Shown here piece after piece: positions 5,365-22,481 of a stretch of 64,000 nt of DNA. The DNA is taken from NCBI RefSeq assembly GCF_004116385.1, contig NZ_PEIB01000001.1, positions 1 through 64,000 of the forward strand. The letters run 5' to 3'. The stretch is from Veronia nyctiphanis (GTDB lineage Bacteria > Pseudomonadota > Gammaproteobacteria > Enterobacterales > Vibrionaceae). Numbering within the stretch: position 1 is the stretch's first letter; each line of letters begins with the position of its first letter. The translations under genes were made by a program, and so were the position numbers. Under the pieces are notes generated by a model. It ran no database searches. It was not told the DNA's origin and was given only the letters and a program-made list of their open reading frames with translations.

Positions 5365-6426
5365 TTGAAGATTCTATTAACTGGTGGTGCGGGCTTTATT
5401 GGCTCAGCCGTTGTACGTCATATAATAAAGAACACGAAAGACAGCGTTATTAATGTTGACAAACTAACTTATGCTGGAAATTTAGAGTCTATTACTGACG
5501 TTGAAAGCAATGATCGTTATGCATTTATTGAGGCTGATATTTGTAATCGTAGTGCGATGGACGATATTTTTTCCGCCTACCAACCAGATGCGGTAATGCA
5601 TTTAGCGGCGGAATCTCACGTTGATCGCTCAATCGATGGCCCTGCGGCATTTATAGAAACTAATATTATCGGTACTTACACCCTGTTGGAAGCTGGTCGC
5701 CAATATTGGAATTCTCTTAATGACGATAAGAAAGCATCGTTTCGCTTTCATCATATCTCTACTGATGAGGTATATGGTGACTTGGAAGGAACTAACGACC
5801 TTTTTACAGAAAAAACATCCTACGAACCGTCAAGCCCTTACTCTGCATCAAAAGCATCGAGCGATCACTTGGTTCGTGCGTGGCAGCGTACATATGGATT
5901 ACCAACATTAGTGACAAACTGCTCGAACAACTATGGGCCTTACCATTTCCCAGAAAAACTCATTCCGTTGATGATTTTAAATGCATTGGAAGGAAAAGTT
6001 TTACCAGTCTACGGCGATGGCATGCAGATTCGCGATTGGCTGTTTGTGGAAGACCATGCACGTGCGCTATATAAAGTCGTAACAGAGGGAGTTATTGGCG
6101 ATACCTATAACATTGGCGGCCACAATGAAAAATCTAACATTGAGGTAGTGAAAACGATTTGCTCGCTCCTCGAAGAGCTGGTTCCAAATAAGCCTGCGGG
6201 GGTTGCCAAGTACCAAGATTTGATTACTTACGTAAAAGATCGCCCAGGGCACGATGTTCGCTACGCGATTGACGCTTCCAAAATTGAACGTGAATTAGGT
6301 TGGAAACCGGAAGAAACGTTTGAATCAGGCATTCGTAAAACAGTTGAGTGGTATCTGAACAATAAAGAGTGGTGGTCTCGGGTGCTTGATGGCTCCTACT
6401 CTCGTGAGCGTTTGGGGTCACATTAA
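5365..6426 (+). CDS. rmlB: dTDP-glucose 4,6-dehydratase RmlB
   Basis: Second enzyme of dTDP-L-rhamnose synthesis: it converts dTDP-glucose to the 4-keto-6-deoxy sugar with NAD. The 353-residue extended SDR protein shows the Rossmann motif GGAGFIG at residues 7-13, the STDEVYGD active-site segment, and the catalytic tyrosine/lysine motif in SPYSASK. It starts at TTG (5365), preceded by AGAGAG; family alignment ([13 protein letters not shown]) requires this unusual start. First of the rmlB-A-D-C set. Confidence 0.95.
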
Positions 6427-6487
6427 TTACTACTTCTTATATATCTGTTTTTAGCCCCACAAATTTAAACGTCGGAACTAAATATTT

Positions 6488-7368
<881 letters not shown>

Positions 7369-7372
<4 letters not shown>

Positions 7373-8253
7373 CGAAAATACTCATAACGGGAAGCAAAGG
7401 ACAAGTCGGGCGGTGTTTAGTTGAACAACTGAACAATACGATTGATATAGAATTTATTGCACTAGATAGAAACGAACTTGATATTACTGATTCGACTTCT
7501 GTTGAAAAAATTGTAACGTCCTTCCGACCCAACGTGATTATCAATGCTGCAGCGCACACGGCCGTCGACCGCGCTGAAGAAGAAGTTGACCTTTCTTATG
7601 CTATTAATCGAGATGGCCCGAGAAACATTGCTGAAGCCGCTGAAAAAATTGGCGCAGCCATACTTCATATATCAACGGACTATGTCTTCGCTGGTGACAA
7701 AGATGGCGAATATGTAGAAAATGATGAAACTGGCCCTCAAGGTATTTACGGTAAAAGTAAACTAGCCGGTGAAATCGCTGTTGCGCAGGCATGCCATCGT
7801 CATATCATCATTAGAACAGCTTGGGTATTTAGCGAGCACGGTGGCAATTTTGTAAAATCTATGCTGCGTTTAGCCGAGAGTCGAGACACATTGGGCATTG
7901 TTGCCGATCAGTTTGGTGGACCAACGTATGCAGGTGACATTGCCGCTGCCCTAATTAAAATCTCAGCTGCTATCACCAAAGGGGCTAGCGTAGAATTTGG
8001 TATTTACCATTATTCTGGTATGCCACATGTAAGCTGGTATGACTTTGCTAAGACTATTTTCGTTGAAGCGACTGAGCAGGACATGTTAAAAAAGCCTACG
8101 GCGATAAACCCAATAGCGACTGCAGACTATCCAACTCCAGCAAAACGTCCGGCAAACTCCAAACTAAATAACAGGAAAATTTACTCCCAGTTTGGTATAG
8201 CACCAAGTTGTTGGCCGTTGGCATTAAAGAATTTAAAAAACTATACGAGTTAA
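7369..8253 (+). CDS. rmlD: dTDP-4-dehydrorhamnose reductase RmlD
   Basis: Last step of dTDP-L-rhamnose formation, an NAD(P)H-dependent reduction. The 294-residue SDR protein has the Rossmann glycine motif ITGSKGQVG near residue 6, the STDYVF segment, and the YGKSKLAGE catalytic Tyr/Lys motif. It begins at GTG overlapping the end of rmlA, and rmlC follows after three bases. Confidence 0.94.
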
Positions 8254-8255
8254 AT

Positions 8256-8801
8256 ATGAAAGTTATTGATACTGAAATCTCTGATGTGAAAATTATTGAT
8301 CCTACAGTGTTTGGTGATGAACGTGGTTTCTTTATGGAAACATGGAATCAAAGAAGATTTGAAGAGTTAGTTACAGGTAAATCAATAAGTTTTGTACAAG
8401 ATAATCACTCAAAGTCAAAAAAAGGCATTTTGCGGGGGATCCACTATCAGACTGAAAATACACAAGGAAAACTCGTACGAGTTATTTCTGGTGAAGTGTT
8501 TGATGTTGCGGTAGATATTCGAAAAGCTTCGCCTACATTTGGTAAGTGGGTCGGTGTATATCTGTCAGCCGAAAACAAACGGCAGTTGTGGATTCCTGAA
8601 GGTTTTGCACATGGCTTCTATGTGACTAGTGATGAAGCTGAATTTGTTTATAAGTGTACAGACTATTATAATCCCGATGCCGAAGTATCAATAAAGTGGG
8701 ATGATAAAGAAATAGGTATTGCATGGCCTATTACTGATAAGCCACTACTCTCTAAAAAGGACAGTAATGCAAGCTCATTTAGTTCTGAAACTTCAATATG
8801 A
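8256..8801 (+). CDS. rmlC: dTDP-4-dehydrorhamnose 3,5-epimerase RmlC
   Basis: Third enzyme of the dTDP-rhamnose pathway, a cupin epimerase. The 181-residue product shows the family hallmarks DERGFFMETW, LRGIHYQ (catalytic His) and WIPEGFAHGFYV. ATG 8256, three bases past the rmlD stop, gives the usual length and N-terminus (MKVIDTEISDVKI). An upstream in-frame ATG at 8208 would overlap rmlD and add 16 unrelated residues. Codon use starts to drift toward A/T downstream of this gene. Confidence 0.95.
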   Translation: MKVIDTEISDVKIIDPTVFGDERGFFMETWNQRRFEELVTGKSISFVQDNHSKSKKGILRGIHYQTENTQGKLVRVISGEVFDVAVDIRKASPTFGKWVGVYLSAENKRQLWIPEGFAHGFYVTSDEAEFVYKCTDYYNPDAEVSIKWDDKEIGIAWPITDKPLLSKKDSNASSFSSETSI

Positions 8802-8944: not shown

Positions 8945-10566
8945 ATGATGAATATAATAGATTGTACACTACGTGATGGCGGATATTATAACAACTGGGA
9001 TTTTCCAAAAGAAGTAGTAGAGGCATATCTGAATGCTGTTTCTGCTGCAAAAATTGATTATGTAGAGTTAGGCCTACGTAACTTTCCCAAGAAAGAGTTT
9101 CTTGGAGCTTATGCATACACAACCGAGGACCACCTCAATACACTTGAGCTTCCAGAAGGGCCAACTTATGGAGTTATGGTTGATGCGAAAACAATTCTAA
9201 GCTCTGACTTACCAGTAGAGCAAGCTATTGAATCTTTATTCATCCCCGCTGAATTGAGCAAAATAAATCTTGTCCGTGTTGCAGCTCACTTTGACGAGGT
9301 TGAAAAATCAGGTCCAATTGTTAAGAAGCTAAAAGAAATGGGTTACATGGTCGGCTATAACCTGATGCAAGCTGGAGGCAAAGACTCAGCAGTTATTGCG
9401 ACAAAGCTCGTCAAGCTTTAGAGTGGGAAGCGCTAGATATTCTTTACTTTGCAGATTCACTTGGAAATATGGATGGAAAAGAAGTCGAAAGAATTGTTAA
9501 AGCTTTACGTCAACACTGGAAGGGAACACTTGGTATCCATACTCACGATAATATGAGTAAAGGTTTAGACAATACGCTTAAAGCACTTAGTTCCGGAGTT
9601 ACCTGGTTGGATGCTACTATTACAGGTATGGGCCGTGGAGCAGGAAATACTCAAACTGAAAAACTCCTTGCATCTTTATATAAGGAGGGTAGTAAATATA
9701 ACCCTCTTCCTATATACGACATTGTGATTCGATATTTTGAAAAAATGCAAAGAGATTATGGCTGGGGTAGCAATCTTTTATACTTCTTGGGTGCTCAAAA
9801 TGATGTGCACCCTACATACATACAAAACCTTCTTTCTAACTCTCACTTCGGAACTGATGAAATTGTGGGTGCTATAGGGTATTTGAGCAAGTTGGAAGGA
9901 ACAACATCATACAATGGTTCTGTATTAGAAACGGCATTATCGTTTAACTCAACCTCAAATGAGGCTTCAGGTACTGATTGTCTTTTAAATAGATTCGTAG
10001 GTAAAGAAGTTCTGGTTGTTGCTAATGGGGATACGACAAAAAACTATTCTGATGCAATTGAGCTATATATAAAACAAAAGAGACCGGTAGTGTTGTCGGT
10101 GAACTTGGTTGAAGGGATAGACAGTAAGCTCATTGACTTTTTTGTTTTATCACACAATGCAAAGTTCCTATCAGATTCAGAAAATTATAAGAAAATTTCG
10201 AATACAGTTATATTACCGAAGCATCGTTTTAGTGATGATGAAATAGAACTGGTGAACCATTTAGAGATATTTGATGTAGGCTTTGATAGTAACGCTATGA
10301 TGCTGAGTGCTGATGAAAATATTGTAAGAGCACCTTATGATTTAACAACTGCTTATGTTTTAGGGTTATTAATTATCAGTTCTGCGGATAAAGTTAGTCT
10401 TGTCGGATTTGATGGCTATGAAAAAGGCGATACTCGTCAACATGAAATGCTAGATATCATTCAACAATATTCTTTAATAGATTCAGCACCTCATCTTGTT
10501 TGCCTGACACCGACTTCCTATCCAATCGAGAAAGGTTCAATATATGCACTCCATTCAAAAATTTGA
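8945..10566 (+). CDS. DRE-TIM (HMG-CoA-lyase-like) aldolase fused to a C-terminal Rossmann-like domain; one frameshift
   Basis: Read as one gene with a single-base deletion near 9406: AAGCT is probably AAGGCT, restoring KARQALEWEALDILYFADSLG. The corrected product is about 540 residues. Residues 1-330 form a TIM-barrel aldolase: DCTLRDGGYYNNWDF at the N-terminus is the Arg/metal-binding signature and GIHTHDN carries the HxH metal ligands, as in 4-hydroxy-2-oxovalerate aldolase and HMG-CoA lyase. Residues from about 350 to 540 form a second domain (VLVVANGDTT near the start, KVSLVGFDGY near the end) whose layout recalls DUF115/GT42 Rossmann domains; that resemblance is by eye. It sits directly before a HAD phosphatase and a KdsB-like gene, suggesting it builds a 2-keto-3-deoxy sugar acid from pyruvate and an aldehyde. 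The substrate is unknown. A strongly AT-rich gene. Confidence 0.75.
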
Positions 10567-11188
10567 TATTTATATATTTGATTGTGATGGCGTAATTTTA
10601 GATTCAAATGAATTAAAGATTGAAGCTATGAAAAATGCGCTATTAGCGCATTTTTCAATAATTCCCGAAGTAGATTTGTGTATAGATTATTTTCGAAATA
10701 ACTTTGGGAAGTCACGATTCCATCACATTAATCATTTTCTTAACAATATTCTCAATGTCGAACAACAACAAAGAGATAGATATGAAAAACTACTTCTAGC
10801 TGATTTTTCTAAACAGTGTCGTAAATTATACCTAAACGCTGAAATTACACCGGGATTTTTGAATTTCCTTAAGCTATGTGAAGGGAAAAGATACGTAGCC
10901 AGTGGTTCTGAGCAAGAAGAGTTACGGAATGTGTTTATCGCTAAAAGGCTAGATAAATACTTTGACGGTATATTTGGTTCTCCAACACCAAAGGTCGAAC
11001 TAATTAGACATATTCTGAATAAAGAAAAAAATATGAACGCTGTGATGTTTGGTGATGCAGAATCAGATATGGTTTCGGCCTGTCAGAATGATATCGAATT
11101 CGTGTTTTACTCTCGGTATTCCAATGTGAAAGACAAAATGCTTAAATTATGCGCATTAAATAAATTTGCAATTATAGATAATTTTTAA
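10544..11188 (+). CDS. HAD-family phosphatase, probable sugar-phosphate phosphatase
   Basis: A 214-residue haloacid-dehalogenase hydrolase. Motif I is FDCDGVILDSNE (nucleophile Asp13, acid Asp15), motif II ASGSEQEE, motif III lysine in PKVELI, and motif IV MFGDAESDM. The helical cap between motifs I and II resembles beta-phosphoglucomutase or phosphoglycolate phosphatase types rather than the capless KdsC. It overlaps the aldolase end by 23 bases, and the KdsB-like gene follows 17 bases later. It could dephosphorylate the aldolase product before nucleotide activation; this role is inferred from context. Confidence 0.78.
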   Translation: MHSIQKFDIYIFDCDGVILDSNELKIEAMKNALLAHFSIIPEVDLCIDYFRNNFGKSRFHHINHFLNNILNVEQQQRDRYEKLLLADFSKQCRKLYLNAEITPGFLNFLKLCEGKRYVASGSEQEELRNVFIAKRLDKYFDGIFGSPTPKVELIRHILNKEKNMNAVMFGDAESDMVSACQNDIEFVFYSRYSNVKDKMLKLCALNKFAIIDNF

Positions 11189-11205
11189 TAAAGGAAACTT
11201 CAATT

Positions 11206-11949
11206 ATGTGTTACGAGAAGAGTTATGCCGTTGTGATTCCAGCACGGTATAAATCTAGCCGCTTCCCCGGAAAGCCGTTAGTCGATATTTGTGGTAAGCC
11301 AATGATACAGCACGTTTGGGAGCGTTGTTGCACAGCAGTTGAACGAAAAAATGTCTACGTTGCCACCGATGATACTCGTATCCAAAAAATTGTACAAGGT
11401 TTTGGAGGGCAAGTTGTTATGACAAGTTCAGATTGTTTGACAGGGACAGACCGTCTTGCTGAAGCAAACTTACAGCTTAATCGTGATTTTATTGTTAATG
11501 TTCAAGGTGACGAGCCACTTGTAAACCCAAACGACATACACACAGTGATTGATTCATTTCTTAGTACAGGTAATGTTACAAATGCTATGTGTCCAATTGT
11601 ATCTGAGGCTGAATTTAATTCTTTAACCGTACCAAAAGTTACCTTCAGCCAATCGGCTAAATTACTTTACATGAGTCGTGCCGGTATACCCTTAACAAAA
11701 GATGGTAGGTATAAATTTGGTTACAAACAGGTTTGTATATATGCTTTCTCAAAAGAACATTTGGAATTTTTTTCCGAGTATAAGGTCAAATCAGAACTTG
11801 AAGAAGTAGAAGATATTGAGATACTTAGATTTCTCGAAAATGACTTCACTGTATCGATGGTTGAAGTTAAATCAGGAGCATTAGCAGTAGATGTTCCGTC
11901 AGATGTTGATGTGGTTATAGCTAAGCTAATAGAAAGTTCTGGAAATTAA
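11206..11949 (+). CDS. KdsB-like CMP-ulosonate cytidylyltransferase
   Basis: A 247-residue member of the 3-deoxy-manno-octulosonate cytidylyltransferase family, which couples CTP to an ulosonic acid to give a CMP-sugar. It has the N-terminal IPARYKSSRFPGKPL loop, GKPMIQHVW, the metal-binding VQGDEPLV and a C-terminal VDVPSDVDVV. Start ATG 11206 follows AAAGGAAAC. An additional KdsB homologue inside a polysaccharide locus, coupled to an aldolase and a HAD phosphatase, suggests a dedicated CMP-Kdo-like donor for this glycan. The exact sugar cannot be read from sequence. Confidence 0.85.
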   Translation: MCYEKSYAVVIPARYKSSRFPGKPLVDICGKPMIQHVWERCCTAVERKNVYVATDDTRIQKIVQGFGGQVVMTSSDCLTGTDRLAEANLQLNRDFIVNVQGDEPLVNPNDIHTVIDSFLSTGNVTNAMCPIVSEAEFNSLTVPKVTFSQSAKLLYMSRAGIPLTKDGRYKFGYKQVCIYAFSKEHLEFFSEYKVKSELEEVEDIEILRFLENDFTVSMVEVKSGALAVDVPSDVDVVIAKLIESSGN

Positions 11950-12110: not shown

Positions 12111-12269
12111 ATGGAGCTAGTGATTTTATATAAACAAATAATCGTTAATGGAACTAATTTATATATAATAACTTCTAGGGTGTCTAACTTTGAAAAATTT
12201 AGAAAGATTGATGCTATATCTGTTGTCTCAAATGGAAATATACAATCAAAACATTGGCCTCAATACTGA
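12111..12269 (+). CDS. Possible 52-residue ORF or gene remnant upstream of wzx
   Basis: ATG 12111 opens a 52-codon frame in the otherwise empty gap between the KdsB-like gene and wzx. The product (starting MELVILYKQIIVNGTN and ending IQSKHWPQY) has plausible protein composition but no family I recognise and no clear ribosome binding site. Its stop lies one base before an octanucleotide repeat array. It could be a decayed gene fragment from recombination. Confidence 0.25.
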   Translation: MELVILYKQIIVNGTNLYIITSRVSNFEKFRKIDAISVVSNGNIQSKHWPQY

Positions 12270-12270
12270 T

Positions 12271-12320
12271 AACTATATAACTATATAACTATATAACTAT
12301 AAATCTATAAATCTATAAAT
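12271..12320. repeat. Octanucleotide tandem repeat array in front of wzx
   Basis: About six period-8 units: three copies of AACTATAT, one AACTATAA and two ATCTATAA, ending 24 bases before the wzx start codon. Such AT-rich short repeats are prone to slipped-strand copy change and could vary promoter spacing or leader length. The rest of the 395-base gap (11950-12344) holds only the small ORF at 12111. Confidence 0.85.
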
Positions 12321-12344: not shown

Positions 12345-13574
12345 ATGCTGATTAAGAATATTACCGCCAATATGGTTACTACCTTGGTAGGGATGTTGGC
12401 TCCCCTAATAGTTATACCAATTTTAACCAGGGATATGGGTCTGGGTGCGTATGGTATATACATGTCGATAGTAGCCTTGATAGGGTTATTTAATGTACTT
12501 AGTGATTTTGGCTTAGATATGTATATATCTAAGGTTTTGTCAGAAATAAAGAAAGATAGTGAGGACATAAATTTTTATGTTTTCTTCTTTATAATATTTA
12601 AAGTTCTTATCTCAATTTTATCCATTATACCTGTCTATTTGCTTCTCGATCCCACACTGGGAGTTGACGAAAGATTTTTAATAGTACTAATTGGCTTCCT
12701 TTTTCTTAGTAATCTTAAACCAACATGTATACTTAATGGGCTTGAAATGTATACATTTCAAGCTAAAACAGAGCTGGTTGGAAAAATTGTAATGGTGATT
12801 CTTGTATTTCTGTTAAATTTTGAAGAAAATGCGATACTTAAAGCATTATTTGCCATGTCCACATCATATTTTATTGTATTACTAATTTCATATATAAAGA
12901 TTTACAGTCTGGGATATTTAAAATTTAACTTTTATCCGATTTGTAACTTCATTAATGTTATTAAAAATTCATTAGATTTCTACTTTGCAAGACTATTTGT
13001 TAATATCTATCAAAAATCGAGTACATACTTTGTGTCTATTGTATTAAACTCTGATGCAGTTGCGCTTTACTCTATTGCAATACAGTTGTACAAAGTTGGA
13101 CAGGCTATTATAGGTTCAATATCTAAAGTACTATATACAAGCACAATAAGAAGTAAAAAAATAAAACCTATCATAATAGCTTCGCTGTTATGCATAACAG
13201 TCTTATTTTTCCTTTACCCAGTAGTCCACTTCTTTGGATTGGAAATTATAAGCTATCTTATTCCAGCTGCCAATGAGATTTTATTTGAAGTATCAAAGTT
13301 ACTCTATTTTTCTCTTATGTTTGTTGTTTTAGGATCGTTCTGGGGTTATCCTGTTTTAGCTTCTTTCAACCTAGAGAAATATGCGCATTTAGGTATTATA
13401 ATTGGCTCATTAATATATTATTTCGCATTTTTCACATTTTGGATGCTTAATTCATTTACTATATATACAGCTATTATTTGTATATTAATTACTGATGCTG
13501 CAACTGCTGTGATTCGGTTACTTATATGTAAGTGGAAAATATCGGGATTACAGGTTAGATATAATGAAATCTAA
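12345..13574 (+). CDS. wzx: Polysaccharide flippase Wzx (oligosaccharide repeat-unit transporter)
   Basis: A 409-residue, very hydrophobic protein with about 12 predicted membrane spans, of the MATE/PST flippase superfamily that moves undecaprenyl-linked repeat units across the inner membrane. The N-terminus (MLIKNITANMVTTLVG, then PLIVIPILTRDMGLGAYGIY) is characteristic of Wzx proteins. The 3' end overlaps the next gene by 11 bases. It is AT-rich with many AUA and AGA codons, as expected of a variable, transferred polysaccharide core. Wzx is assigned by family pattern and context with a Wzy candidate downstream. Confidence 0.85.
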   Translation: MLIKNITANMVTTLVGMLAPLIVIPILTRDMGLGAYGIYMSIVALIGLFNVLSDFGLDMYISKVLSEIKKDSEDINFYVFFFIIFKVLISILSIIPVYLLLDPTLGVDERFLIVLIGFLFLSNLKPTCILNGLEMYTFQAKTELVGKIVMVILVFLLNFEENAILKALFAMSTSYFIVLLISYIKIYSLGYLKFNFYPICNFINVIKNSLDFYFARLFVNIYQKSSTYFVSIVLNSDAVALYSIAIQLYKVGQAIIGSISKVLYTSTIRSKKIKPIIIASLLCITVLFFLYPVVHFFGLEIISYLIPAANEILFEVSKLLYFSLMFVVLGSFWGYPVLASFNLEKYAHLGIIIGSLIYYFAFFTFWMLNSFTIYTAIICILITDAATAVIRLLICKWKISGLQVRYNEI

Positions 13575-14724
13575 TTATTCAAAATACAAAATCTTTAAAA
13601 AAAAATTCCATGGTTTAATTTATAAAGGTATTGCTCTTGACTATGCTTTAGGGTCATACTTAGCACAGTATGTGTGGAGTAATAAGAAAGTAAGATTTAT
13701 TCTTGGTCTTCTTTTTGAAGGTTATAAATTAGATTATAGTTATATTTCAAAAAAGAAAAATGAGTATGATGTTTTTACATACTATATTGAAAGGGACGAT
13801 TACAGGAAATTAATTGAAGGATATATCGAAAAATCTGATACAGAATATGAATTAGTGAAAATAGAATCAGAAAAGAAATGGAAAAATCTTTTTTTAAGTT
13901 TGACTTATATTTATGAATCATGGGTTCTATCTAGAGGAAGAAAGTTTGGTGTAATTGATTTGTTATTTGTTGCTTTTTCCTTAAGGGTAATTGACAAAAT
14001 TGGAAATTTGAATTTTAAAGGATACATGTCTTTTAATAGTGCTTTCAAATACGAATCGTTCCTATCACTTTATTTCAACGCTAGAGATGTAGAAACATTC
14101 TCTATACAACATGGAGCATACTTTAATTTCAAAAATGATACTCCTATCGATGTCATTAATTATGAAAACTTATGCTCAAGTAACCTTCTTTGCTGGGGTC
14201 AGTATACGGTCGACCAGATAAAAAATCTTGTACCGAAGTATACAAATATAGTAAATTATGGTTATCCCCTAGTTCACTCTGCTAACAATTACAAACCACA
14301 AAAAGAAAATAAGGCTATCTATATTTTAGTGCCCAGGTCTATATATAAAGAAGAGATTTTAAATTTATTTAAGATATTAAAAGATACTGGAGAAGAGTTT
14401 GTTATAAGGCCACATCCGAGTGTAAAAAAAGAAATTGGAAATTATATAACTACAAATAAATTAGAATGGATTATTGATGATAAAGAAACTATGCACTCTT
14501 TGCTAAGAAAATACAAGTTTAAAGCTTGTATTAGCTTTAATTCTACAGCTCTATTTGAATGTATTCTATTTAACCAAAACGCTATTCAATATGTATCTGA
14601 TAACGATGAGTTCATATTAGATAATCTCTGTAAGTTCAACAATATTATCACATTCAAAAATGCAATTGAGACATCAGTTAAACAAACTGTAGATGTAAGC
14701 TATTTCTTTAAGAGTGTACTATGA
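13564..14724 (+). CDS. Probable GT-B-type glycosyltransferase with HP and S/T motifs
   Basis: A 386-residue soluble protein with no close family I can name. Its C-terminal half carries FSIQHGAYF, a strand-turn FVIRPHPSVKKE (HP motif near residue 283) and CISFNSTALFE (S/T motif near residue 325). The HP plus S/T arrangement is seen in CMP-sugar-dependent bacterial sialyl- and Kdo-type transferases, and also in TagF/KpsS-like capsule enzymes. With a KdsB-like CMP-sugar synthase upstream, it is a good candidate for the ulosonate transferase. That is inference. Its stop overlaps the wzy start by four bases (ATGA). Confidence 0.6.
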   Translation: MKSNYSKYKIFKKKFHGLIYKGIALDYALGSYLAQYVWSNKKVRFILGLLFEGYKLDYSYISKKKNEYDVFTYYIERDDYRKLIEGYIEKSDTEYELVKIESEKKWKNLFLSLTYIYESWVLSRGRKFGVIDLLFVAFSLRVIDKIGNLNFKGYMSFNSAFKYESFLSLYFNARDVETFSIQHGAYFNFKNDTPIDVINYENLCSSNLLCWGQYTVDQIKNLVPKYTNIVNYGYPLVHSANNYKPQKENKAIYILVPRSIYKEEILNLFKILKDTGEEFVIRPHPSVKKEIGNYITTNKLEWIIDDKETMHSLLRKYKFKACISFNSTALFECILFNQNAIQYVSDNDEFILDNLCKFNNIITFKNAIETSVKQTVDVSYFFKSVL

Positions 14725-15843
14725 CAAGCGAAAAAAATAACATCTCAGAATTCACAATTTTCACGATAATTATTTTGTTGTATTTCATACAAACTGGGGA
14801 CTATATATTTTCACGCTATTTCTTACCAATTGTTGGTTTCTTTAGCTTTATTTTTTACTTGCTATTTTTAAGGAAAGAAAAATTAAGATTAAAAGTTGAT
14901 GAGCTAATAGTTTATTTTTTTATTTATTTTTCCACGTCACTTTGTATACTTTTTTCAGCTCAATCAATATCAGGTGCAATTTTTGATTACGTAAAGGTAT
15001 TTTTTGCATACTCAAGCTTTATTGTAGGCTATTATACATTCTCTAGGATTAACAGCTATTCAAAAAATAAAAAAGATTTCATTTTATATAATGGTAGTAG
15101 CATCTGTATTTTTATTTCTAGAGTTTTATATAAGAGTTGTGTATAATTATGGCCTTTCATTTTCCATATCAAATTTTTATTTACTTAAAGTATCCAGTCC
15201 CTTCTTCTTTGATTCGAACGGGACAGGAATATATATTCTTTGTCTGTTTTGCTATGTTTTGTGTGTATTTCCTAAATTAGGTAAAGAGAAATATATTTAC
15301 GTTACTATACTATCTGTCTTCCAAACTCTTACCTTTAGTCGCGCAGCAATTTTATGTTCACTTATAGTATTAGTAATATCCTATGTTTATCATCTCCGAC
15401 CATCTCTAAAATTTTTGTTGTCTGCTTTAATAGTAACGATGTTATCGTTGCAAGTACCTAAATATATCGATCTCATAAGTGCTGATGGAAGTGGTTCTAC
15501 TAAGTTAGCAATTTTTAGTAGATTAAGTGACCTATTTTTTAATTATGACCTGTTAGAACAGTTGTTCGGTTTTGGTGTTGAGAAAGGAAATTTTGCTTAT
15601 TCATATTATGATGGAAGTTATGCCCATGCATTAATACCGATGCTTTTGGGAGAATTGGGCTTAGTGGGTCTCTTGTCATACTTGATTTTTTGGTTGTTTT
15701 GGGGAGTTAAAAGTCCCAAGGTATTTTTCACTGTTTTCATACCATTTTTTATCCTTGGGCTTTCATATCTCCCTCCATTAAATGAGACTTACTTTTTAGT
15801 TGCAGGAATTTCTATGGCCCTAACACGCAAGGATGACTTTTAA
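14721..15843 (+). CDS. wzy: Candidate O-antigen/capsule polymerase Wzy, broken in an A-tract
   Basis: Two overlapping frames together encode about 373 residues with roughly ten hydrophobic spans and the late periplasmic-loop and AHALIPMLLGELGLVGLLSYL pattern found in Wzy/O-antigen ligase-like polymerases. The reading frame shifts +1 within 15061-15075, where CAAAAAATAAAAAAG holds two six-A runs; removing one A joins FSRINSYSKNK to KISFYIMVVASVFLFLEF. This is the only insertion-type break seen in the window. It may be a sequencing error in a homopolymer or a genuine slipped-strand on/off site. The product would polymerise repeat units on the periplasmic side. Confidence 0.7.
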
Positions 15844-15845
15844 GA

Positions 15846-16831
15846 ATGAAACAGAGATTACTTTTCATTTGCCCGTCATTTAATAATTATGAAAATAAAA
15901 TCTTAGCTGCCTTAGATAAAAAATTTTTGGTTGACACTATTTTTTATGAAGAGACAGAGATTTTTAATATTTATGGAATTAAAAAAATCTTAGTTGTACT
16001 TTTTAGGTTGTTATTTCAGCTAACGTCTTTAAACCTCTTTGAAAGTATAAAGATTAGCATTTATAGGTTGGGGGCTAAAGGCTCAGTAAAAAATTAAGCA
16101 CCACAGCAAGCGACTTCGATTTTATATTTGTAATTAAAGGGTTCGGTATTTCAATAGATGATGTGAATTTACTAAGAGAAAGGAACCCAAATGCTAAGCT
16201 ATATTTTTATCAATGGGATTCTTTTAATATATATAAAGATGAAAGAGAGATCTCAAAACACTTTGATAGAGTTTTTTCATTCCAGCTTTGTGATTGTAAA
16301 GATGGGGTAAAATATCTACCAAATCCACACTTCTCGGAAGTCAAAGAACTGGAAGTGAAATTGAAAAATGGAATATACTATATTGGGATATTCACTATTC
16401 AAAGATATAGAACGCTAAATTCAATAGCAAAGACTTGCAAAGAAAGAAATATAGAGTTCAAATGGGAATTATATTCAAATAATTTTTTAATTAAATTTAT
16501 ATTCGGAAAAAATATAATTAATAGAAAAGTTTCAGCGGAAAAAATTGTAACTTTATATAAGGATTTTGGTGTTGTATTAGATCTGGGACAATCTAATCAA
16601 TCAGGTGTAACACAGAGATTCTTTGAATCTTTATCATTAGGTTGCTCTGTAATTTCTTTTTCACCAGATGTGAGCAAATTTCAGAATATGAGTAATATGG
16701 TTTTAACATATAAGAGTTTTCGTAAAGGAAAATGGTTTGATGATCAAAAGGCCGAAACTGAGAAATTAAAAGAATTTATATCAAAGTATCATATTGATAA
16801 TTGGATCAATGAAATTTTTAAAAAAGATTAA
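15846..16831 (+). CDS. Putative glycosyltransferase, broken in an A-tract
   Basis: The frame ends at 16097 after GAKGSVKN but continues at once in the -1 frame (KKLSTTASDFDFIFVIKGFG). The break is in the six-A run at about 16088-16093; one added A restores about 328 residues. The C-terminal half (LDLGQSNQSGVTQRFFESLSLGCSVISF) resembles the nucleotide-sugar binding end of GT-B transferases found in capsule clusters. The N-terminal part (LLFICPSFNNYENKIL) fits a GT-B acceptor domain. It lies two bases after wzy and three before the next transferase, so it is clearly co-transcribed. The donor sugar is unknown. Confidence 0.6.
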
Positions 16832-21461: not shown

Positions 21462-22481
21462 ATGAATGTTCTGGTCACTGGTGGTATGGGGTATATTGGC
21501 AGCCATACCTGTGTACAAATGATTGAAGCTGGTCTTAACCCGGTGATACTCGATAACCTCACTAACAGCAAACAAGCTGTTCTCGTACGTATCGAAGCGT
21601 TAACCGATAAAAGGCCAACGTTTTATCAGGGGGATATCAGAGACAAAGCGTTGTTAGTTGAGTTGCTGCAAAGTGAAAATATTGAAGCTGTCATTCACTT
21701 CGCGGGTCTGAAAGCCGTTGGTGAATCAGTAGAAAAGCCGCTGGAATACTATGACAACAACGTCAATGGTACGCTTGTCTTGCTTGATGCCATGAGAGAG
21801 GTTGGCGTCAATAAGCTAATATTTAGCTCGTCTGCAACCGTTTATGCCGAGTCAGATATTCAACCCATGAACGAGGAGTTTCCTAGAGGAGCATCGAGTC
21901 CTTACGGCCGATCTAAGTTAATGGTAGAAGAGTGCCTGACGGATTTTCAACATGCCAATCCGGATTGGAGCATTACCTTGCTTCGCTACTTTAACCCCGT
22001 TGGTTCACACCCCTCTGGCACTATGGGCGAAGACCCGCAAGGAATTCCCAATAACCTGATGCCATTTATCTCTCAAGTCGCAGTGGGTCGAAGAGAGAGC
22101 CTTTCGGTATTCGGTGATGACTATCCGACACGTGATGGCAGCGGCGTAAGAGATTATATTCATGTTGACGATCTGGCCTCTGGGCATATTGCGGCATTAC
22201 AAAAAGCTGGCAATGTCGCTGGTATTCATACATACAACCTCGGTTCTGGTGACGGTAAAAGTGTCTTCGAGATGATTTCTGCTTTCTCAGAAGCTTCCGG
22301 CAAGGACATTCCATTTGTCGTGAGTGCGCGCAGAGCCGGCGACTTGGCAGAATATTTTGCTGATGCCTCAAAAGCTGAAAAAGAACTTGGTTGGAAAACA
22401 ACGCGTTCTCTGACTGACATCGCTCGTGACACATGGCGATGGCAATCGCAAAACCCTGAAGGGTATCCCGACGATAAATAG
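21462..22481 (+). CDS. galE: UDP-glucose 4-epimerase GalE
   Basis: Interconverts UDP-glucose and UDP-galactose. The 339-residue SDR protein shows TGGMGYIGSHT near residue 6, the YDNNVNGT segment, SSSATVYA and the catalytic YGRSK motif. It provides UDP-galactose for the polymer or for lipopolysaccharide. GAGGAAAAG precedes the ATG. Confidence 0.94.
   Translation: MNVLVTGGMGYIGSHTCVQMIEAGLNPVILDNLTNSKQAVLVRIEALTDKRPTFYQGDIRDKALLVELLQSENIEAVIHFAGLKAVGESVEKPLEYYDNNVNGTLVLLDAMREVGVNKLIFSSSATVYAESDIQPMNEEFPRGASSPYGRSKLMVEECLTDFQHANPDWSITLLRYFNPVGSHPSGTMGEDPQGIPNNLMPFISQVAVGRRESLSVFGDDYPTRDGSGVRDYIHVDDLASGHIAALQKAGNVAGIHTYNLGSGDGKSVFEMISAFSEASGKDIPFVVSARRAGDLAEYFADASKAEKELGWKTTRSLTDIARDTWRWQSQNPEGYPDDK

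Follow-up and report, generated by a model that had tools for sequence, protein, structure and literature searches.

What does a bacterium make with an aldolase, a phosphatase and a cytidylyltransferase encoded side by side in a polysaccharide locus? The question is raised by positions 8945 to 11949 of the DNA studied here, the first 64,000 nucleotides (nt) of contig NZ_PEIB01000001.1 of Veronia nyctiphanis (assembly GCF_004116385.1; henceforth the window), where open reading frame (ORF) translations and Pfam matches place a tightly packed cassette of a DRE-TIM metallo-aldolase (in two pieces), a HAD phosphatase and a KdsB-like cytidylyltransferase. An initial annotation had named these families, called the genes AT-rich and proposed that they follow the logic of ulosonate synthesis without KdsA or NeuB. 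The families are borne out by ORFs, Pfam matches and motifs, and the base composition by G+C contents of 37.5, 31.6 and 38.0% for the three genes against 43.2% for the whole window. The proposal itself gains support from five lines of evidence set out below—conserved linkage of the genes, fusion in viral contigs, a residue signature in the linked KdsB, swapping of KdsB for NeuA, and one host genome, L024, in which no other such route was found—and from these sequence comparisons we consider it likely that these genes together serve the biosynthesis of a cytidine monophosphate (CMP)-activated 2-keto-3-deoxy sugar acid (ulosonate).

Conservation of the gene set

Loci for comparison were sampled by aldolase similarity alone. 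A pattern scan of the genome_contigs collection gave at least 592 stretches, with at least 583 relatives of some kind, and the best 80, together with six loci from other genomes of the window's class, make up 86 aldolase loci (handles beginning with L), 79 of which have an ORF of at least 480 amino acids (aa). Counting as partners genes within 6 kb, and for the synthetase also on the same strand, this genome-context search—one that the initial annotation had called for—finds a CMP-sugar synthetase in 68 of the 79 loci (46 KdsB-like and 22 NeuA-like, or PseF-like; directly following the aldolase in 50), a HAD gene in 57, and both in 52. Where at least 3 kb of downstream sequence is known (n = 66), the counts are 57 for the synthetase, 52 for the HAD gene and 47 for both; among the seven loci with ORFs shorter than 480 aa, a synthetase was found in L044 and L045 and not in L076, L080, L082, L084 and L087. 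Members of the cassette come from Pseudomonadota, Bacillota, Cyanobacteriota, Bacteroidota, Campylobacterota and Omnitrophota, and the recurrence of the same genes together across phyla argues that their association is not due to chance. When neighboring proteins were clustered, the aldolase, synthetase and HAD families were the commonest (83, 69 and 56 loci), followed by a Polysacc_synt_2 type (36 loci); that these three stand out suggests that three genes suffice and that the aldehyde would come from central metabolism.

At E 1e-20, 7 of the 369 genomes searched in this class contain a match to the larger aldolase piece, with the window's genome counted in both numbers; among 41 genomes drawn as relatives, the window's is the only one with a match. 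This distribution marks a scattered accessory gene. On two Leisingera plasmids the set is annotated as "aldolase catalytic domain-containing protein," "3-deoxy-manno-octulosonate cytidylyltransferase" and "HAD family hydrolase," and genes so named would need new names if the ulosonate reading is true. In the open-access PubMed Central (PMC) literature, as judged by listings and abstract openings and with subscription papers outside its scope, we found no account of the gene set, which is widespread and apparently uncharacterized. Two observations on individual loci may be added here: the Pelagibacterales loci L043, L047 and L079 have a full-length aldolase with no CMP synthetase within 6 kb, and a B12-binding radical SAM family, identified in L043, occurs in seven loci (L035, L043, L047, L053, L057, L064 and L079).

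The phosphatase and the linked cytidylyltransferase

The window phosphatase is a HAD protein by its motifs, DCDGV, SGS, K and GDAESD, all of which are present; the consensus of 47 cassette HADs reads FDCDGV, SG, K and GD..D, and the window protein is 40 to 51% identical to the HADs of cassettes L066, L056, L065, L071, L055 and L058. In the window KdsB, K23, D102 and D229 occupy the catalytic positions, equivalence being taken by motif; work on A. aeolicus KdsB (PMC3149649) gives K19, D95 and D219 as the catalytic lysine and the two aspartates for Mg-A. The three residues are kept in all 48 cassette KdsB proteins. The cassette thus resembles the pathway to 3-deoxy-D-manno-oct-2-ulosonic acid (Kdo) in these residues and in the proposed order of its reactions, which would be that of KdsA, KdsC and KdsB: C–C bond formation, dephosphorylation by a HAD enzyme and CMP activation. 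It differs in having a DRE-TIM aldolase as synthase instead of the phosphoenolpyruvate (PEP)-dependent KdsA, in its KdsB signature, and in occurring in L024, where KdsA and KdsD were not found.

These likenesses raise the alternative that the cassette is a second route to ordinary Kdo, with the aldolase replacing KdsA, the HAD enzyme replacing KdsC and a second KdsB, providing extra Kdo for O-antigen or capsule. The window synthetase exceeds the cut-offs of the NCBIfam subfamily models NF009905 (299.5 against 255 bits) and NF003952 (248.4 against 193), it closely matches 1gq9, a structurally solved CMP-Kdo synthetase (E 4.7e-47), and PMC3210612 lists Kdo among Pseudoalteromonas polysaccharide components. 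Yet it falls below the KdsB equivalog cut-offs, narrowly for TIGR00466 (154.0 against 155.2) and also for NF003948 (167.6 against 281), and its sugar domain departs from that of other KdsB proteins. When cassette KdsBs are compared with 15 other KdsBs from cassette-bearing genomes (16 stretches were fetched, and the split L113 was left out), 11 positions differ, all in the C-terminal, sugar-binding half. Eight positions chosen on this comparison—N126, P143, K165, Q175, C177, F181, I204 and I206 in window numbering—serve as a signature, counted as held when at least six of the eight are present. It is held in 43 of 48 cassettes, in none of the 15 other KdsBs and, among viral fusion proteins not used in choosing it, in 38 of 39, the remaining fusion having at most two of the positions. 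By sequence, the aldolase-linked KdsBs form a separate class, and the product of the cassette is probably not Kdo; with the genomic evidence given below, we consider the Kdo route unlikely.

Fusion of aldolase and synthetase in viral contigs

A scan of the viral_contigs collection yielded 63 loci with an aldolase relative (L120 to L182), all on uncultivated contigs. Of these, 39 (21 clusters when grouped at 90% identity) encode the barrel together with a KdsB-like domain in a single protein of 537 to 598 aa (480 aa in L136, where the fusion runs to the end of the stretch); the other 24 comprise 22 barrel-only proteins and two with the C-terminal domain described below. Both Pfam domains scored above cut-off in all eight fusions scanned, and RDGG and HxHxN occur together in 38 of the 39. 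A protein family with MptE-like members lies in 25 of the 39 fusion loci (the L124 member is above the Pfam cut-off, that of L138 below it), and the neighbors in the few viral contigs scanned include phage exonuclease and glycosyltransferase families. Near 27 of the 39 fusions, at a distance of up to about 4 kb, there is a HAD-like ORF; it belongs to the viral family phrog_1238 and is not counted as proof. In the INPHARED phages there was no full match to the fusion, the KdsB part alone being matched in four records. From these sequences, some viruses may carry an ulosonate pathway of their own.

The aldolase and its C-terminal domain

The N-terminal piece of the window aldolase is 62 to 71% identical over 145 to 157 aa to the aldolases of L056, L066, L055, L061, L071 and L065, and the larger piece is 47 to 55% identical to these six and to L058. 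The initial annotation had named missing catalytic residues as a reason to abandon the proposal; the RD and HxH metal-site motifs, whose R9, D10, H198 and H200 are invariant in 67 aligned rows, are in fact found in the two window pieces, although the position of DmpG His21 is taken by a tyrosine. These motifs and a modeled TIM barrel with 3dxi and 1nvm as its top matches identify a DRE-TIM metallo-aldolase. The model, of the Shewanella abyssi protein (L066; predicted local distance difference test score [pLDDT] 93.2, predicted template modeling score 0.77), matches 3dxi at a TMt of 0.89 and 1nvm (DmpG) at 0.79, with sequence matches at E 6.4e-47 and 5.1e-16, respectively. The first of these structures is the N-terminal domain of the putative aldolase BVU_2661 of Bacteroides vulgatus, a member of the same aldolase family for which no function is stated, and a search of the open PMC literature with this locus name returned no paper.

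With DmpG and BphI the cassette aldolase shares the TIM barrel, its RD...HxH metal site and the fold. Unlike them, it scores under the 4-hydroxy-2-oxovalerate aldolase equivalog cut-off (TIGR03217, 286 bits; 103.7 for L066, 18.3 and 57.0 for the window pieces), has tyrosine for His21 and carries an extra C-terminal domain. Nor does an acylating aldehyde dehydrogenase stand beside the window aldolase, whose neighbors are RmlC and the HAD gene by translation, a statement that concerns these neighbors since no genome-wide search was made. A Claisen-type (acyl-CoA) or other condensation, leading to a non-ulosonate hydroxy acid that is then CMP-activated, would accord with this tyrosine and with the weak matches of the aldolase to homocitrate and isopropylmalate synthase models. 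We think it very unlikely, as the best characterized neighbor is 4-hydroxy-2-oxovalerate aldolase (1nvm, by sequence and by structure) and the linked synthetases belong to the KdsB and NeuA families, whose best-known substrates are ulosonic acids.

Intact relatives of the aldolase carry a C-terminal domain; the equivalent part of the window copy has no Pfam match, PF01973 included. Modeled alone, the L066 domain (pLDDT 94.9) matches Maf 5mu5 with a VIA Z of 16.1 and a root mean square deviation of 2.7 over 180 of 190 residues, followed by archaeal HPPK (12.3; MptE, 12.3), SteA (11.8), a Pasteurella sialyltransferase (11.2), CstI/CstII (10.1 to 10.8; 1ro8, 10.8), thiamine pyrophosphokinases (9.0 to 9.5) and mammalian sialyltransferases (7.8 to 8.8). 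VIA put Maf first; Foldseek alone put SteA first. An hhalign comparison of the domain with two Maf and two MptE-like rows gave a probability of 94.7, and the MptE-like family PF01973 matches L066 at 26.7 bits (E 5.7e-6), under its cut-off of 34.6. On the model, then, the domain has a Maf/sialyltransferase/HPPK-type fold, and CMP-sugar enzymes are prominent, though not alone, among the matches. What sets it apart from the Maf flagellin glycosyltransferases, the GT42 enzymes CstI and CstII and MptE is its fusion to an aldolase and a GPS loop that is not strictly kept; the loop reads NGDTT in the window copy, in which nucleotide binding may therefore be degenerate.

Other ulosonate routes and swapping of the synthetase

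We searched 20 cassette genomes for DAHP_synth_1, NeuB, CTP_transf_3, KdsD and PEP mutase, with absence calls resting on draft genomes and an E limit of 1e-10. The clearest case is that of Rossellomorea aquimaris (L024), in whose genome the sole CTP_transf_3 place is that of the cassette and the sole DAHP_synth_1 protein is a DAHP synthase/chorismate mutase; the search detected neither KdsA nor NeuB there, and the KdsD match reached 44 bits against a cut-off of 204. The L024 locus encodes EpsG-family and Wzx-type proteins. A 475-aa protein encoded directly upstream of its aldolase (L024:8548-9972) has no Pfam match at E 1e-5.

These searches also bear on the Kdo alternative. KdsD was not above cut-off in the genomes of L024, L046, L054 and L026; the two Prochlorococcus genomes among these, L046 and L054, have one DAHP synthase each, and NeuB is present. 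In Bacillus sp. ISL-41 the genes for KdsA, KdsB and KdsD lie only a few kilobases away from the cassette, which is thus not needed for Kdo there. In addition, a NeuA-type synthetase replaces KdsB in 22 of the 68 loci with a synthetase. This brings the cassette close to the NeuB/NeuA, pseudaminic acid and legionaminic acid pathways, with which it would share a CMP-activated ulosonate for surface glycans, as proposed here, as well as the NeuA/PseF-like enzyme of 22 of the 79 loci and the Maf/GT42-type fold. It differs from them in that the aldolase would replace NeuB, which was present in 20 and undetected in 18 of 38 genomes tested (the 20 and 19 further ones, with one shared). Six genomes with NeuA-type cassettes are among those without detected NeuB (L013, L016, L017, L023, L032 and L034). 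The window has no PF00793 or PF03102 place (E up to 1e-10), the nearest on its contig lying at C1:284197 and the genome's one NeuB place on C35.

Along the aldolase tree the label KdsB, NeuA or none changes 10 times, and the KdsB label 9 times, at least 5 of which are forced by starred branches; this is a quick tree with long-branch warnings, covering 74 of the 86 loci (L036, L063, L081, L088, L089 and the ORFs below 480 aa were left out). The best-known substrates common to the KdsB and NeuA families are 2-ulosonic acids, and the replacement of one synthetase by the other would therefore point to an ulosonate product.

CMP activation has another setting as well, in that phosphonate pathways can join it with a homocitrate-synthase-like enzyme. 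A CMP-phosphonate pathway, as in the synthesis of phosphonate antibiotics or phosphonoglycans, would find some footing in the PEP mutase matches below cut-off in most of the 20 genomes. Above cut-off, PEP mutase occurs in one of them, a Prochlorococcus, and the synthetases are of KdsB and NeuA type; of all the alternatives we find this one the least credible.

Proposed pathway

We propose that the DRE-TIM domain, judged by its family and motifs, would join pyruvate, in its enol form, to an aldehyde that is probably a sugar phosphate of central metabolism. The product would be a 2-keto-3-deoxy aldonate phosphate, and the enzyme would thus take over the job of the PEP-dependent KdsA or NeuB. The HAD enzyme would then remove the phosphate, and the KdsB-like enzyme, with its conserved catalytic residues, would couple the anomeric C2 hydroxyl to CMP. 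In a last step a CMP-sugar transferase would add the residue to a surface polysaccharide. The C-terminal Maf/GT42-like domain of the aldolase could be a sensor of product or nucleotide, or itself a transferase.

For this last step, the ORF at 13564 to 14724 is a weak candidate in the window. In the genome search it matched PF07388 at 22.9 bits (23.4 with neighbors in frame); among the 20 genomes this family has three places (E up to 0.001), the window ORF being one of the three, and two of them lie beside a cassette. A search of the PDB with it gave no useful match. Elsewhere, nine cassette neighbors were scanned, giving a GT52 protein in L066 (E 7.4e-18), an MptE-like protein in L074 (E 1.1e-11) and, below cut-off, GT29 in L005 (E 1.3e-4); L012, too, has an MptE-like neighbor. 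These transferases are examples without a control.

A wider claim is that the cassette represents a third general CMP-ulosonate route beside those of KdsA and NeuB, in which a metal-dependent pyruvate aldolase, fused to a Maf/sialyltransferase-like domain in bacteria or to the synthetase in viral contigs, would make short or unusual ulosonic acids for Gram-negative, Gram-positive and virus-encoded glycans; here we see the case for and against as evenly balanced. A short ulosonic acid, a 3-deoxy-pentulosonic acid, is known from a Klebsiella capsule. The open PMC literature on "pentulosonic" gave no lead to a known short ulosonic acid, the titles listed being concerned with sugar metabolism. If the claim is true, bacterial and perhaps viral glycans contain an overlooked class of monosaccharides, ulosonate synthesis gains an added type of enzyme, and the fused aldolase-CMP-synthetase could be used for one-pot preparation of CMP-sugars.

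Several findings weigh against the ulosonate reading. None of the members of the family has a known activity, and the tyrosine aligned with DmpG His21 (Y13, in at least 90% of the 67 rows) takes the place of a catalytic base, so that one cannot be sure of an aldol reaction with pyruvate. By the criteria used, a CMP synthetase is missing from 11 of the 79 loci: in L036 and L081 the sequence stops at the aldolase or shortly behind it, the KdsB of L049 is encoded on the opposite strand, the match in L025 is below threshold, and none was seen within 6 kb in L043, L047, L053, L057, L079, L088 and L089, the last two matching the barrel only. A HAD gene is not within 6 kb in 22 of the 79 loci, some of them on short stretches, and as HAD is a large superfamily, some of the 57 counted may be chance neighbors. 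In 7 of the 79 loci an HpcH/HpaI-type aldolase is also present, and it could be the enzyme that builds the carbon skeleton in these. The signature is absent from the linked KdsBs of L026, L050, L051, L064 and L062; those of the first four share a second residue pattern and are encoded over 2 kb away from the aldolase, an HpcH/HpaI-type aldolase being near in L026, L050 and L051, and from their residues these four are probably a second subtype. In many hosts the cassette coexists with other ulosonate routes: NeuB occurs in 20 of 38 genomes, and KdsD exceeds its cut-off in 16 of 20. Nor is the C-terminal fold confined to CMP-sugar enzymes, given that archaeal HPPK, SteA and thiamine pyrophosphokinases rank among its matches, and six of the nine neighbors scanned gave no match to a CMP-sugar transferase. 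Finally, the window's own aldolase copy is frameshifted.

The aldolase frameshift

The window aldolase consists of two ORFs in different frames, the second frame being open from about position 9362, which puts the break within about 60 nt (approximately 9362 to 9421). Aligned with intact relatives, which are about 540 aa long, the two pieces together retain every conserved block. One explanation is that the frameshift is real and the cassette dead, with the pathway decaying in this strain, a matter that concerns the strain and not the family. Two further genes of the locus look split as well, a Wzy-like gene (14721 to 15146 and 15091 to 15843) and one for a WaaS/CpsH-family glycosyltransferase (15846 to 16097 and 16163 to 16831), and the first pieces of both gave no family match above cut-off. 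Their apparent splitting speaks for decay, with the absence of a confirming family match for the first pieces to be set beside it. Another KdsB of the same genome, however, which is of housekeeping type by sequence, is also split, into ORFs 92-622 and 547-840 in different frames (L113; G000:C42:70253-70902), and the draft genome is in 127 contigs. On these grounds an assembly error is a plausible cause of the aldolase frameshift. Since in addition all conserved blocks are kept and the HAD and KdsB genes are intact, we regard a dead cassette as possible but the less probable explanation.

The polysaccharide locus

The initial annotation had set the cassette in a Wzx/Wzy polysaccharide locus, and the flanking Wza/Wzc, RmlBADC and Wzx genes agree with this. 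From Wza at 1131 to GalE at 22481, the gene order is Wza-Wzb-Wzc-RmlBADC-[cassette]-Wzx-glycosyltransferases-Ugd-GalU-GalE, a surface polysaccharide locus of Wzx/Wzy type with the cassette between RmlC and Wzx; names were read from translations, with domain matches for Wzx and the glycosyltransferases only. In Brenneria salicis (L055), homologs of Wza, Wzc, RmlBADC, the cassette and Wzx follow each other in the same order. Coordinates are collected in Table 1.

Table 1. Genes and domains of the cassette and of its surroundings in the window
Feature	Position	Strand	Details
rmlB, rmlA, rmlD, rmlC (context)	5365..8801	+	Names from translations
Aldolase, N-terminal part	8945..9421	+	158 aa; TLRDGG; RDGG at about 8972-8983; frame ends early by frameshift
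Aldolase, remainder	9469..10566	+	365 aa; HTHDN at about 9538-9552, GMGRGAGN, YGWGSN, then C-terminal domain; PF00682 E 3.4e-14; 3dxi E 3.5e-21
Aldolase C-terminal Maf/GT42/MptE-like domain	9994..10563 (approximate limits)	+	Predicted from fold of the equivalent L066 domain
HAD phosphatase	10544..11188	+	214 aa; PF00702 E 3.2e-8, PF13419 above cut-off; overlaps aldolase by 23 nt
KdsB-like cytidylyltransferase, aldolase-linked subclass	11206..11949	+	247 aa; PF02348 E 1.9e-42
Wzx-type flippase (context)	12345..13574	+	PF01943 E 3.2e-28
Candidate CMP-ulosonate transferase	13564..14724	+	Weak polysialyltransferase-family similarity; PF07388 21.4 bits against 23.3 cut-off

The cassette DNA had no match in E. 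coli genomes, and between 8700 and 12400 promoter- and terminator-like sites are no commoner than in shuffled sequence. Just 5′ of the Wzx start, at 12269 to 12317, lies an 8-nt tandem repeat of 6.1 copies with 95% matches; with a unit length not divisible by three and a position upstream of the flippase, it could be a site of phase variation.

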